A stretch of 64,000 nt of DNA, from assembly GCF_008087665.1 (NCBI RefSeq), contig NZ_CP042912.1, positions 5,456,001-5,520,000 on the forward strand. Reading direction: 5' to 3'. The notes under the pieces are model-generated. The model worked only from the letters and a program-made list of their open reading frames with translations, had not been told where the DNA came from and did not search any database. Positions within the stretch are counted from its first letter, which is position 1. Each line of letters starts with the position of its first letter. Shown in pieces: positions 50,284 through 54,466 of the stretch. The position numbers were made by a program, and so were the translations under genes. This DNA comes from Mariniblastus fucicola. Lineage in GTDB: Bacteria > Planctomycetota > Planctomycetia > Pirellulales > Pirellulaceae.

Positions 50284-51144
50284 CTACTTTTTCGCGTCGG
50301 GCTTTTTGTCTGATTTTTCTCCGAGCTTCGCTTCTTTCTGTTTAAGTGACTCTTCACGCTGCTGCAACGCTTTTTCTTTTTCCTGCAGTGCTTTCTCTTT
50401 TTCGGCCAACGCTTTTTCCCTTGCCGCCAATTGCTCTTCTTTGGAGACAGGCTGCTTTTCCTTGGCGTCTTTCTTTGGCTCTTTCTTCTGTTCTTTTTTG
50501 GGCTCTTCAAACACCGGCAGCTTACTTTCGCCGACGACATTCAAGCCTTCGATTTGTCCTTCAAGTGCCTTCATTCCGGCATCAGTGACTTTGCTTTTCC
50601 AAACATAAACCTTTTTCAGTTTCTTGAGTCCGTACAGATGTTTGAGCCCTTCGTCAGTCACGGACGTCGCATAAAGATTCAGGTATTCAAGATCTTTGAG
50701 GCCTTTCAGGTGAGCCAACCCGGAGTCGCCGATTCCTGTTTTCTCAAGATGCAGCTTTTTCAAATTCAAACCGGTGAGTGCTTTGAGCCCCTCGTTGGTG
50801 ACGCCAGTATTGGCAAGGTTCAGCCACACAACGTTCTCGACGGCGGCAAGGTCTTTGATGTGTTCGTCCGCGATCGATTTTCCGGCAAGGTAAAAACTCA
50901 CCTCGCGAGTTGGATCAGCGGCAGAGATTTGCATGACCCGGCCTCCCGCCGCTTCGATTTTGCGTATCGCTTCGGCTTCACGACGAGAGCTTTCTTCTTG
51001 CTCTTGGGCACAAGCTGTTGCGAAATCAATTGATCCCAATCCAACGCCGCACAACAGCAGCGGCAAAAGAAACAGACTGCAGCTTCGAGAAGTGAACTTC
51101 TGCGATGGAGCGAACTTCTGTGGAGCAATGTTTTTTGTAGTCAT
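50284..51144 (-). CDS. Exported leucine-rich-repeat protein with coiled-coil tail
   Basis: 286 residues from ATG 51144. The signal peptide is long, with a basic start and LFLLPLLLCGVGLGSIDFATA. Five or so 24-residue leucine-rich repeats (VWLNLANTGVTNEGLKALTG, KKLHLEKTGIGDSGLAHLKG, EYLNLYATSVTDEGLKHLYG, KKVYVWKSKVTDAGMKALEG) form a protein-binding surface. The C-terminal 85 residues are a Lys/Glu/Gln coiled coil with heptad-like AAREKALAEKEKALQEKEK. It is a typical planctomycete exported LRR protein. Function unknown. Confidence 0.78.
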   Translation of the reverse strand: MTTKNIAPQKFAPSQKFTSRSCSLFLLPLLLCGVGLGSIDFATACAQEQEESSRREAEAIRKIEAAGGRVMQISAADPTREVSFYLAGKSIADEHIKDLAAVENVVWLNLANTGVTNEGLKALTGLNLKKLHLEKTGIGDSGLAHLKGLKDLEYLNLYATSVTDEGLKHLYGLKKLKKVYVWKSKVTDAGMKALEGQIEGLNVVGESKLPVFEEPKKEQKKEPKKDAKEKQPVSKEEQLAAREKALAEKEKALQEKEKALQQREESLKQKEAKLGEKSDKKPDAKK

Positions 51145-51288
51145 CGGTGGCACCCGGTTTGTCTTTGAACTCACTGAACTGCCGGTTTTAGCCAATCCAT
51201 CCGAGACTCTCAAGCAGATTCAGATACAATTCTGATTCAGCGGCTCAACCGACTGGCTCGCACGGCGAAACCTGACAAGACTTTTACC

Positions 51289-52353
51289 ATGACCAAACTT
51301 TTTCTTTCAATCGCGGCGTTACTGTTTGCTTCGTGGTTTGTCGCGAATTCGCCCGACGACCCGGTTGCCGCGGAAATTGGCAGCGTCAAATGGAATCGCG
51401 ATTACCAGTCGGCAAAGAAGATCGCAGCGGAATCCGAAACGCCGCTGATGCTGTTGTTTCAGGAAGTTCCCGGCTGACAAACTTGCGTCGATTTTGGCCG
51501 TGGGCCAATGACGAATCCGCTGCTGGTCGAAGCTGCCGAAGAGCTGTTTGTTCCGGTGTTGATTTACAACAACCATAAAGGCTCTGACGAAAAACTGCTC
51601 AAGCATTTCGAAGAACCGGCTTGGAACAATCCGGTAGTCCGCTACCTCGACGCAAAAGAACAGGATCTGATACCGCGAAAGGAACTGGTGCTCACGACAG
51701 CCGAAACGGCGAGCCGGATGGCTGATTCGCTTCGCAAAGCCAGGAATGAAATCCCCGCCTGGCTAACGGCACTCGCGGTTCCTACTCGCGCCAAAAGCCT
51801 GGAACAGGCAACGTTTTCGATGTACTGATTCTGGGAAGGAGAAGCCCAGTTGGGCTCAATTGATGGCGTCTACGCAACGGCCGCGGCATGGCGTGATGGC
51901 GTGGAAGTCGTTTCGCTACTTTTCGATCCGGACGAAGTTGCCTATCGAACGCTGGTCGAAAAAGCCAAGCAGTTCAAATGCACGTCCAAAGTTTTCGCTC
52001 ATTCGAAATCACAGCTTGAAGTCGCGAACGAACTCGTGGGTGACAAAGCCGTTATGGCGAACGAATCTCAGAAGCCACGTTTTGCCAAAGCCTCAGACCA
52101 AAAGTATTACCTGGCGAATTCGCCGCTGAAGAGCCTTCCGATGTGTGGTTGCCAGATGACGAAACTGAATGCCGCGATGGGTTTGGGACAGCCGGTCGAT
52201 GCGTTGCTAAGTCCGCGCCAGAAAGTGCTGGCGAAGCGAATTCTGCGACGGCTGGAATCGGACCCAGATTCGCTGGACGGATTCATTTCGCCATCGGACG
52301 ACAACGAACTTGGCGACTATTCAACGAAACTCGAAGCGGCACTTTCGAAATAA
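51289..52353 (+). CDS. Double-selenocysteine thioredoxin/MsrA-like selenoprotein (two in-frame UGA)
   Basis: 354 codons read through two TGA codons at 51475-51477 (residue 63) and 51826-51828 (residue 180). All three open segments lie in one frame. A signal peptide (MTKLFLSIAALLFASWFVA) is followed by a thioredoxin-like domain with LMLLFQEVPG-U-QTCVDFG, where Sec63 and Cys66 make a UxxC redox pair. The second TGA sits in FSMY-U-FWEGEAQLGSIDGV, the MsrA active-site motif GCFWGxE, and EVVSLLFDPDEVAYRTLVE continues an MsrA-like domain. A C-terminal CGCQ motif could resolve the selenenyl intermediate. The match to the VPGUxxT thioredoxin-like (seleno)protein family that I recall from genome annotation is strong. 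Each TGA is followed by a SECIS-like hairpin. Likely an exported thiol/selenol oxidoreductase; activity unproven. Confidence 0.88.
51478..51513 (+). promoter_or_regulatory. SECIS-like hairpin after the first UGA
   Basis: TTGGCC (51494-51499) pairs with GGCCAA (51503-51508) around a GTG loop (51500-51502). A lower stem CGTC (51486-51489)/GACG (51510-51513) is separated by a small internal loop. The apical loop begins with G and starts 23 bases after the TGA. This meets the published bacterial SECIS consensus: a G among the first two loop bases, and 16-37 bases from UGA to loop. Confidence 0.72.
51829..51858 (+). promoter_or_regulatory. SECIS-like hairpin after the second UGA
   Basis: AGCCC (51843-51847) pairs with GGGCT (51852-51856) around an AGTT loop (51848-51851) whose second base is G. 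The loop starts 20 bases after the TGA at 51826-51828, inside the window expected for a bacterial SECIS. The stem is shorter than the first one. A competing hairpin, CTGGG/CCCAG (51831-51849), is possible. Confidence 0.62.
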
Positions 52354-52399
52354 GTCCGTCGGCAATCGATTGGCTTCAAGAGATTGCGTCGCGTTTTCG

Positions 52400-53173
52400 C
52401 TAACGCCGCACCGAATCGTCCGTTCGTTCAAACAGCCCCTGAAGGTAGTCGGGCTCGATTGACGGAAGATGATCGGTAATTTTGTGTTCGTGGTCGTGAT
52501 CGTCACCGACGCCGTGATTGTAGAACCCGTTGTCGCGACAACAGTCCATCAACGTGCCATCGTTCGCGATCAACAACGCCAACAGCCCGACTTTCGTGTA
52601 GGTAGAAATGTTTGCAAAGGAATCCTTTCCAAAGAACTTCAGCGCCGTTCCCCAGCTCTTTTTCAGTCGCCGACCCATCATGTCGACCGAGTAGAGTTCA
52701 TCGAGCAACAGGTGCAAAATAAACCCAAGGAAAACAGACCAGGCTTTAAAAAGTCGAATCCCTGTCTCTGGCGAAAAGCAAACGAGGTAAGTCGCCATCG
52801 CCGCAACTGCTGCGGCCGGAATGCTGTGCCACATCCCGCGGTGTTTCGTAAATCGTTTGAACAACTCGCCAAGCCCGAACCTTATCACGACATAGGAAAC
52901 GCCGGCCACGAACACCATCTGTTCAGCAGTGAACCCCAGTTCCTGAAATCGGAACATCATTAACATCGGGACCAGCACTGACACAAAGCACAGCATTTCC
53001 CGCTGAGGAATCCCGCTCTTGCTATCGAGGTCCGGAAGCATCCCGGCCACACTGCACAGCGCACCGGCGATCATGCAGTGTCCCAGCGGAACGTCAAACT
53101 TGAGATGAGCCACTCCGCCGTAGCCGATACCAAGAATCGTGCTGGCGGTGATGTGGGTCTTGAAATCGGCCAT
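52400..53173 (-). CDS. YdjM/DUF457-like membrane-bound metal-dependent hydrolase
   Basis: 257 residues from ATG 53173. The family pattern is clear: THITASTILGIGYGG at the N-terminus, GMLPDLDSKSG and KHRGMWHSIPAA with the metal-ligand Asp and His, then LHLLLDELYSVD. Several membrane helices lie between these motifs. In other bacteria this family includes LexA-regulated YdjM and related inner-membrane hydrolases of unknown substrate. A His/Asp-rich stretch (HGVGDDHDHEHK) is near the C-terminus. Confidence 0.8.
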   Translation of the reverse strand: MADFKTHITASTILGIGYGGVAHLKFDVPLGHCMIAGALCSVAGMLPDLDSKSGIPQREMLCFVSVLVPMLMMFRFQELGFTAEQMVFVAGVSYVVIRFGLGELFKRFTKHRGMWHSIPAAAVAAMATYLVCFSPETGIRLFKAWSVFLGFILHLLLDELYSVDMMGRRLKKSWGTALKFFGKDSFANISTYTKVGLLALLIANDGTLMDCCRDNGFYNHGVGDDHDHEHKITDHLPSIEPDYLQGLFERTDDSVRR

Positions 53174-53404: not shown

Positions 53405-54466
53405 ATGTCAGTCTATGACATTGCCATGATCATTGTCTTTTTAGGCGCCATCTGGTTTGGATACTGGAAAGGGCTCGCCTGGCAAGTCGCTTCTGTGGCA
53501 GCGATCTTTTTGAGCTACTTCGTCGCCGTCACGTTTCCTGACGCGCTCGTCCCCTACATTTCAGCCGAACCACCTTTCAACCGGTTCGCTGCAATGCTGA
53601 TCCTGTTTATTGGTACTTCGCTGATCGTCTGGACAATTTTTGCGTCCGTCAGCAAGTCGCTGAAGAAGATGGAACTCAAAGGCTTCGATCGCCAGGCGGG
53701 AGCACTTCTCGGCGCGTTCAAAGGCGCTTTGCTGTGCATGGTCATCACCATGTTCTCCGTTTCACTGCTGGGCGAGCAAGCACGCGATGCGATTCATCAA
53801 TCCAAAACGGGTTACTACGTGGTTCGTGGAATCGATCAGCTGTCTGGCTTTGCTCCAGCAGAACTGGCGCAATTCATTCATCCCTACGTGACAAAATTCC
53901 AGGAGAACATCGTCGACGAAAATGGAAACTTGCCGCAACAAAATCCGATTTTCAATGGCGAGTCACAACAAGTGAACGACCAGACGCAATTTGGAAATCC
54001 CGATGGCGGATACCAACAGACGCCCGCCGGCGACTACCCTCAGTGGCAAACCCAAGCCAGCCCTGCAGGATACCAGCGACCTGCAACAACGCCGCAAAAC
54101 GGTCAGCCGCAAACCCAGCCGTGGCAAGGTAGCTATCAAAGCGGAACGTTCGGCAGTCCTGTTCCGCAAAACAACAATGGCTATCAGCAAGGAAACTTCG
54201 GGACTCAGGGTCAGCCGCAAACTCAGTGGCAGCAGCCCAAAAACAGCCAGCAGTTCCAGAGTCCGACGCAGTGGCAGCCTCCGGCTCAAACTTCACCAAC
54301 GCAGCAGAATCCAAACGGCTGGAGCACCCAGTTCCCAAACATCACCGAAGGCCAGAACGGCTGGCCGAACGTGCAGTTTAACGTCAACAGCAAGGAACTT
54401 CTCGAACGCGGCGCCGGAGCAGCACTCGACGCGGGCAAGCAATGGCTTGAGAACCAGCGACAATAG
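53405..54466 (+). CDS. CvpA family membrane protein with Gln/Pro-rich tail
   Basis: 353 residues. Residues 1-165 are a CvpA/colicin V production-like membrane domain with four helices (YDIAMIIVFLGAIWFGYWKG, VASVAAIFLSYFVAVTF, FAAMLILFIGTSLIVWTIF, GALLCMVITMFSVSLLG). The next 150 residues are a low-complexity Gln/Asn/Pro/Gly/Tyr tail, ending in an amphipathic Ala-rich helix. CvpA-type proteins support envelope integrity or secretion. The disordered tail is unusual for the family and may be a phase-separating or adhesive region. Confidence 0.8.
   Translation: MSVYDIAMIIVFLGAIWFGYWKGLAWQVASVAAIFLSYFVAVTFPDALVPYISAEPPFNRFAAMLILFIGTSLIVWTIFASVSKSLKKMELKGFDRQAGALLGAFKGALLCMVITMFSVSLLGEQARDAIHQSKTGYYVVRGIDQLSGFAPAELAQFIHPYVTKFQENIVDENGNLPQQNPIFNGESQQVNDQTQFGNPDGGYQQTPAGDYPQWQTQASPAGYQRPATTPQNGQPQTQPWQGSYQSGTFGSPVPQNNNGYQQGNFGTQGQPQTQWQQPKNSQQFQSPTQWQPPAQTSPTQQNPNGWSTQFPNITEGQNGWPNVQFNVNSKELLERGAGAALDAGKQWLENQRQ

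Follow-up and report, generated by a model that had tools for sequence, protein, structure and literature searches.

Clostridium oremlandii reportedly makes tandem use of selenocysteine (Sec), as the title of a 2011 paper by Kim has it. The Sec-containing methionine sulfoxide reductase of this organism (CoMsrA) takes its electrons from glutaredoxin and not from thioredoxin, and an excerpt of its description gives Tyr47, Glu55 and Tyr90 as active-site residues (PMC4333827). A different arrangement is found in PilB of Neisseria, which unites thioredoxin-like, MsrA and MsrB domains and uses Cys; according to passages of PMC6210582, the exported thioredoxin-like domain lies ahead of MsrA and is re-reduced by DsbD, the MsrA domain shows intermolecular reduction in vitro, and the active site of N. 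meningitidis MsrA comprises Cys51, Glu94 and Tyr82 or Tyr134 (figure legend). A further family, NF041383, appears in Table 1 of a 2026 review as OS_HP5 with the motif VPGU and 1 Sec; PMC13188914 credits it to Zhang and Gladyshev 2007, and the corresponding entry of a 2022 review carries no motif. The 2026 table holds families with 2-3 Sec, none of them named there as a thioredoxin/MsrA fusion. Nor did a thioredoxin/MsrA fusion appear, by title or abstract start, among the papers listed in our searches; the NCBIfam text or the 2007 paper may mention a second site. The family is known, and what appears to be new in the gene described here is the altered MsrA active site together with a second Sec that has a hairpin of its own, although an earlier mention of the second Sec is possible.

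The gene is located in a stretch of 64,000 nucleotides of the Mariniblastus fucicola genome (referred to as the window), and its features are listed in Table 1. The preliminary description had joined three open segments separated only by TGA into one frame, and this was confirmed: the sole interruptions are TGA at codons 63 and 180, TAA closes the frame, and with TGA read as Sec a single protein results. Residues 29-313 of this read-through protein, both TGAs included, score 387.4 bits against NF041383, well above the cut-off of 275, which confirms the family named in the preliminary description. The gene shares with OS_HP5 the score membership across nearly the whole model and the VPGU motif; it differs from the 1 Sec of the 2026 table by the second Sec in the MsrA-like half, present in 20 of 109 aligned rows in all. 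In the nearest relative (L002, 66% identity) TGA recurs at both codons, and pN/pS against it is 0.41, 0.35 and 0.29 for the three segments, which indicates purifying selection in all of them, with synonymous sites near saturation.

Table 1. Features of the double-TGA gene in the window
Feature	Position	Strand	Basis and remarks
Whole gene, VPGUxxT family thioredoxin-like (seleno)protein type 2	51289..52353	+	354 aa, U63 and U180, stop TAA
Likely signal peptide or N-terminal anchor	51289..51345	+	hydropathy only; helix 7-17 at low confidence
Thioredoxin-like domain, about residues 28-154	51370..51750	+	VPGUQTC (UxxC); Thioredoxin_7 below cut-off, model, fold match
First in-frame TGA, U63	51475..51477	+	frame reading, aligned relatives
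Hairpin core behind first TGA, candidate bacterial SECIS	51494..51508	+	UUGGCC-GUG-GGCCAA, loop 22 nt past TGA; register differs among relatives
MsrA-like domain and C-terminal helical part, about residues 169-354	51793..52350	+	model, fold and profile matches
Second in-frame TGA, U180, column of MsrA catalytic Cys	51826..51828	+	frame reading, aligned relatives, profile alignment
SECIS-like hairpin behind second TGA	51841..51858	+	7-pair model, 5 pairs formed here, GUU loop, loop 19 nt past TGA
E206, column of MsrA general-acid Glu	51904..51906	+	Glu in 108/109
C231, column of MsrA active-site Tyr; proposed resolving Cys	51979..51981	+	Cys in 95/109

Relatives were collected from three sources. 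A set of 60 genomes gave matches in 19 (15 with a family member, 4 with weak matches only), and in the phylum 32 of 392 genomes scored above the family cut-off. Together these searches yielded 44 aligned members, of which 17 are Sec/Sec, 16 Sec/Cys and 11 Cys/Cys (site 63/site 180), with no Cys/Sec. A scan of named genomes contributed 80 loci among the matches listed, out of 551 relatives (63 Cys/Cys, 11 Sec/Cys, 5 Sec/Sec and 1 Gly/Cys). Less 12 duplicates and 3 short rows, the two sets make up 109 distinct rows; a copy of L001 (L046), two phylum matches above the cut-off and every weaker one lacking a locus had been removed before the counts, and L005, L008 and L014 were excluded from one alignment (A1). 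Because near-identical sequences are still contained, the counts of 67 Cys/Cys, 21 Sec/Cys, 20 Sec/Sec (this gene included) and 1 Gly/Cys are not independent. The core of L114 is identical to that of L006. Cys was expected opposite U63 and U180 in homologues, and it was found in 67 and 89 rows, respectively, the others being Sec (41) or Gly (1) at site 63 and Sec (20) at site 180. Both columns are thus Sec or Cys in 108/109 rows, in agreement with the claim of Sec codons at both active sites. The Cys/Sec state is absent among the 109 rows, and the second Sec occurs only where the first residue is Sec. The Gly row, L082, reads HGGAVC in place of VPG(U/C)xxC, either a real change or an assembly fault. 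Among the matches listed, the named rows belong to Planctomycetota, Bacteroidota, Myxococcota, Verrucomicrobiota, Thermodesulfobacteriota, Ignavibacteriota and one MAG labelled Alphaproteobacteria, and the Sec rows bearing a phylum name to Planctomycetota. A quick tree, with 40 of 106 inner branches poorly supported, requires a minimum of 14 changes at site 63 (L082 excluded) and 6 at site 180, where the second Sec, together with its own SECIS-like hairpin, would accordingly seem to have switched state at least 6 times.

Regarding the machinery, the genome that carries the gene encodes tRNA-Sec (70.1 bits, anticodon TCA), SelB (355.7), SelA (555.4) and SelD (265.1), all above cut-off, as the preliminary description had led one to look for. 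SelA is above cut-off in 40 and SelB in 42 of the 44 member genomes. Neither reaches it in G278 (Cys/Cys) and G002 (Sec/Cys, 89% complete), G231 (Sec/Sec, 77% complete) has no SelA and a partial SelB, and G234 (Sec/Sec) has a SelA fragment of 263.5 bits; the Sec-bearing genomes without full SelA or SelB (G002, G231 and G234) are all incomplete. Since SelA is above cut-off in 10 of the 11 Cys/Cys genomes, the Cys residues there are not explained by loss of the machinery, and the presence of selA was rejected as an explanation of the Cys/Cys rows.

Hairpins behind the two codons were assessed by simplified bacterial SECIS rules after Zhang and Gladyshev 2005, which are not those authors' program. 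By these rules a SECIS-like hairpin is present behind the first TGA by folding only and behind the second by folding and covariation. The median energy of the best hairpin at site 63 is -13.6 kcal/mol for TGA genes (n=41) versus -2.7 for Cys genes (n=67), and at site 180 -14.9 (n=20) versus -7.35 kcal/mol (n=88), compared with -2.1 at control positions (L082 excluded). A value of -9 kcal/mol is reached at site 63 by 37/41 TGA genes versus 17/67 Cys genes, and at site 180 by 20/20 versus 40/88. Two of the 41 TGA-63 genes have no qualifying hairpin, and at this site the best loop starts at several positions, with no single register among relatives. Cys-180 genes likewise lie below the controls in energy (p 1.7e-5), which together with the 40/88 means that part of the site-180 signal is due to coding. 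With relatedness removed, by pairs taken on well-supported branches, the trend between hairpin and Sec state mostly keeps its direction and is not significant in an under-powered comparison of 8 independent pairs at site 63 (median p 0.22) and only 4 at site 180 (median p 1).

With columns numbered from the TGA, the stem at site 180 pairs 16-22 with 27-33. Its loop contains GTT in 20/20 TGA genes versus 6/89 Cys genes, and all five inner pairs are formed in 17/20 versus 1/89. The contrast persists among rows sharing the GEA(QEKR)(LF)G peptide, where a mean of 4.9 of 5 inner pairs is formed in TGA genes (n=13) versus 2.7 in Cys genes (n=26). Over 18 distinct rows (L061, with N in the stretch, excluded) both-side changes occur in 4 of the 7 pairs, a number reached by 14 of 500 shuffles. 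The cells with both-side changes, which count related sequences and not events, number 14 versus a shuffled mean of 4.7 (reached in 0/500 shuffles), and controls slid along the alignment give 0 or 1. The stem is closed by C-G in 9 rows and by G-C in 8, and the codons of two adjacent residues differ along with this pair (Gln or Arg-Leu versus Glu-Phe), so that here an RNA constraint looks to have shaped the protein next to its active site; as the Glu-Phe rows fall in one clade, the flip may represent one or two events. Double changes arose separately in three further pairs. When the genome was scanned with a covariance model of the site-180 rows, this site alone was found, with 150 of 2869 first-look candidates scored and the site itself in the training set, and Rfam gave 2 chance matches far under gathering scores for window positions 51200-52400.

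The protein had been taken for exported. Its N-terminus is hydrophobic, and a hydrophobic 12-residue window (Kyte-Doolittle) is found near the N-terminus in 37/43 members versus 4/43 in a control stretch taken from the mature part, with start codons chosen by script and some member N-termini therefore wrong. The protein is probably exported. An AlphaFold2 model from 41 aligned members, with Cys for Sec, has a pLDDT of 93.3 and a pTM of 0.88, a value that for two domains suggests a fixed domain arrangement. In Foldseek, chains of C. oremlandii MsrA take the first six places among the PDB matches of this model (E 4.3e-7 to 1.6e-6 over 202-209 columns, TM-score by target 0.56-0.59, identity 18-19%), the best at E 4.3e-7 with a TM-score of 0.57 by target and 18% identity; further MsrAs follow, E. 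coli MsrA with E 3.9e-5. The aligned length, together with a reading of L020, suggests that the helical tail of CoMsrA is common to this protein. Thioredoxin-fold matches are 3f9u (1.6e-4), DsbH (2.5e-4), DsbD gamma (4.4e-3) and Thermus thioredoxin (6.4e-3); they appear to belong to the first half, to which they were assigned by sequence, with 3f9u at profile positions 40-97. Pfam scores remain below gathering for both Thioredoxin_7 (PF13899, 25.0 bits versus 27) and PMSR (PF01625, 16.9 versus 23.7), the latter being reached by a few relatives. The protein thus combines a thioredoxin-like fold with a CxxC-type motif (UxxC) and an MsrA fold found by both structure and profile, as had been proposed; the MsrA role proposed with it holds only in part, both active-site Tyr being gone.

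In a profile match of residues 173-249 to MsrAs of planctomycetes (probability 98.55, E 1.5e-15), U180 falls on the catalytic Cys, E206 on the Glu of GHAE and C231 on the Tyr of QYRS, and the PTY loop, which holds one active-site Tyr, is deleted. W182 is conserved in all 109 rows, E206 in 108, C66 in 106 and C231 in 95. The preliminary description had seen a GCFWGxE motif here, of which the catalytic position stands and the full GCFWG does not: the protein reads M-Y-U-F-W-E-G-E, without Gly before the catalytic residue and with the Gly after Trp displaced by one. Of the MsrA signature, Sec/Cys, F/Y-W and Glu are kept, the flanking Gly and both Tyr are not. C231 is missing in 14/109 rows, 3 of them Sec/Sec, and is therefore not essential everywhere; 11 of these rows lack C231 alone. 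Like CoMsrA, the protein has the MsrA fold and, it seems, the helical domain at the C-terminus; the catalytic residue is Sec in both, and the Glu is kept. The Tyr47 loop is missing, Cys mostly stands in place of Tyr90, and CoMsrA and its glutaredoxin are two proteins where here there is one, probably exported, chain. The residue numbers of CoMsrA and N. meningitidis MsrA were matched to the alignment columns by us, and the correspondences are to be read as presumptive. PilB resembles the protein in its exported thioredoxin-like domain ahead of MsrA, export being probable here; it differs in its use of Cys in place of Sec and in its MsrB domain, none being found among the profile matches of the present protein, which is thus not an MsrAB of the PilB type.

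Regarding function, UGA-63 and UGA-180, each followed closely by its hairpin, would be read as Sec by SelB and tRNA-Sec. U180, aided by E206, may then attack an oxidised substrate and become a selenenic acid, which C231, in the column of the lost MsrA Tyr, would resolve to an Se-S bond. Reduction of this bond would fall to U63/C66 in the thioredoxin-like domain, a pair that a DsbD-like membrane protein could re-reduce in turn; two DsbD-type membrane domains are encoded in the genome. That the first domain reduces the second, as had been suggested earlier, can reasonably be inferred. In this view the protein would unite in cis what C. oremlandii keeps apart as Sec-glutaredoxin and Sec-MsrA, perhaps with another substrate. 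A double-Sec protein with such an in-cis relay, whatever its substrate, we consider likely. The most far-reaching form of this reading, an exported relay from Sec-thioredoxin to a Sec-MsrA derivative whose pocket has been rebuilt by a resolving Cys at the Tyr position for a substrate other than methionine sulfoxide, is put forward as tentative.

Two in-frame TGAs could in themselves point to a pseudogene, a sequencing error or another meaning of TGA. The same TGA codons recur in other genomes, though, Cys stands at these columns elsewhere, and Sec machinery, a covarying hairpin and purifying selection behind both TGAs all speak against it; we regard such an origin as extremely improbable, and it was rejected on the recurrence of the TGAs and the purifying selection. 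Because both columns hold Sec or Cys, the machinery is present, selection is purifying, and the hairpins are stronger at TGA than at Cys, with covariation in that of site 180, the gene is very probably a genuine double selenoprotein of a planctomycete, a judgement that concerns the double Sec alone. A self-reducing exported methionine sulfoxide reductase resembling PilB departs from our best explanation in the substrate only and overlaps with the relay in general. The catalytic position, the Trp and the general-acid Glu are retained, the structure matched best belongs to a methionine sulfoxide reductase that has a helical tail, and PilB offers the same order of domains. Against this, one Tyr loop is deleted and the other Tyr column is mostly Cys, which makes methionine sulfoxide a doubtful substrate, GCFWG is not conserved and PMSR stays under its cut-off. 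The genome has, besides this protein, one intact Cys-type MsrA, which could take care of ordinary Met-oxide repair without it. We hold this reading to be rather unlikely, and calling the protein a methionine sulfoxide reductase was rejected as too strong.

Alternatively, U63, C66, U180 and C231 might hold a metal or metalloid by their selenols and thiols without electron cycling. C231 is missing from each of the 3 rows in which C66 is absent (Fisher p 0.0017), as such a site might lead one to expect, and the second half weakly matches copper/mercury binding domains (E 0.04-0.37). These matches are, however, far weaker than those to MsrA (best E 2.9e-10), the MsrA Glu is retained almost throughout, and the C66 losses amount to 2 tree changes only, so that we consider metal binding improbable. 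The protein lends itself, as a single natural chain, to asking why bacteria should place Sec at two points of one electron path, and three states occur naturally in its family, Cys/Cys, Sec/Cys and Sec/Sec.

Several related genes were noted in passing. The PGUxGC thioredoxin-like proteins of other planctomycetes (L183, L184 and L185) have a similar first domain with TGA in the site-63 column and, unlike this gene, no MsrA-like half in frame; by eye, L183 and L185 have lipoprotein-like N-termini and L184 a longer N-terminal part. Separate MsrA genes with one in-frame TGA occur in L020 and L182 and in G001, G002, G006, G008, G009, G012 and G016 (same genus). Two of these that were read are C. 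oremlandii-like, and M. fucicola itself showed a Cys MsrA only. In G003, G007, G008, G017 and G018 the MsrA match is split after model position 34 within one frame that stays open over 296-338 aa, which looks like an insertion of some 65 residues.

Both neighbours in the window are oriented opposite to the gene, a leucine-rich-repeat (LRR) protein divergently and YdjM convergently. The former (50284-51213, minus strand) is probably exported and has a charged tail. According to tblastn with the two window neighbours, the LRR gene adjoins the family gene in the near relatives L001-L005 and L076, whatever their Sec state, and was not found at the remaining loci examined. No shared partner gene was noticed by eye in 8 other loci, in which some neighbours lie on the same strand (e.g. 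L088). Further downstream in the window (53405-54466, plus strand) we noted a Colicin V production (CvpA) domain accompanied by a long tail rich in Gln and Pro.
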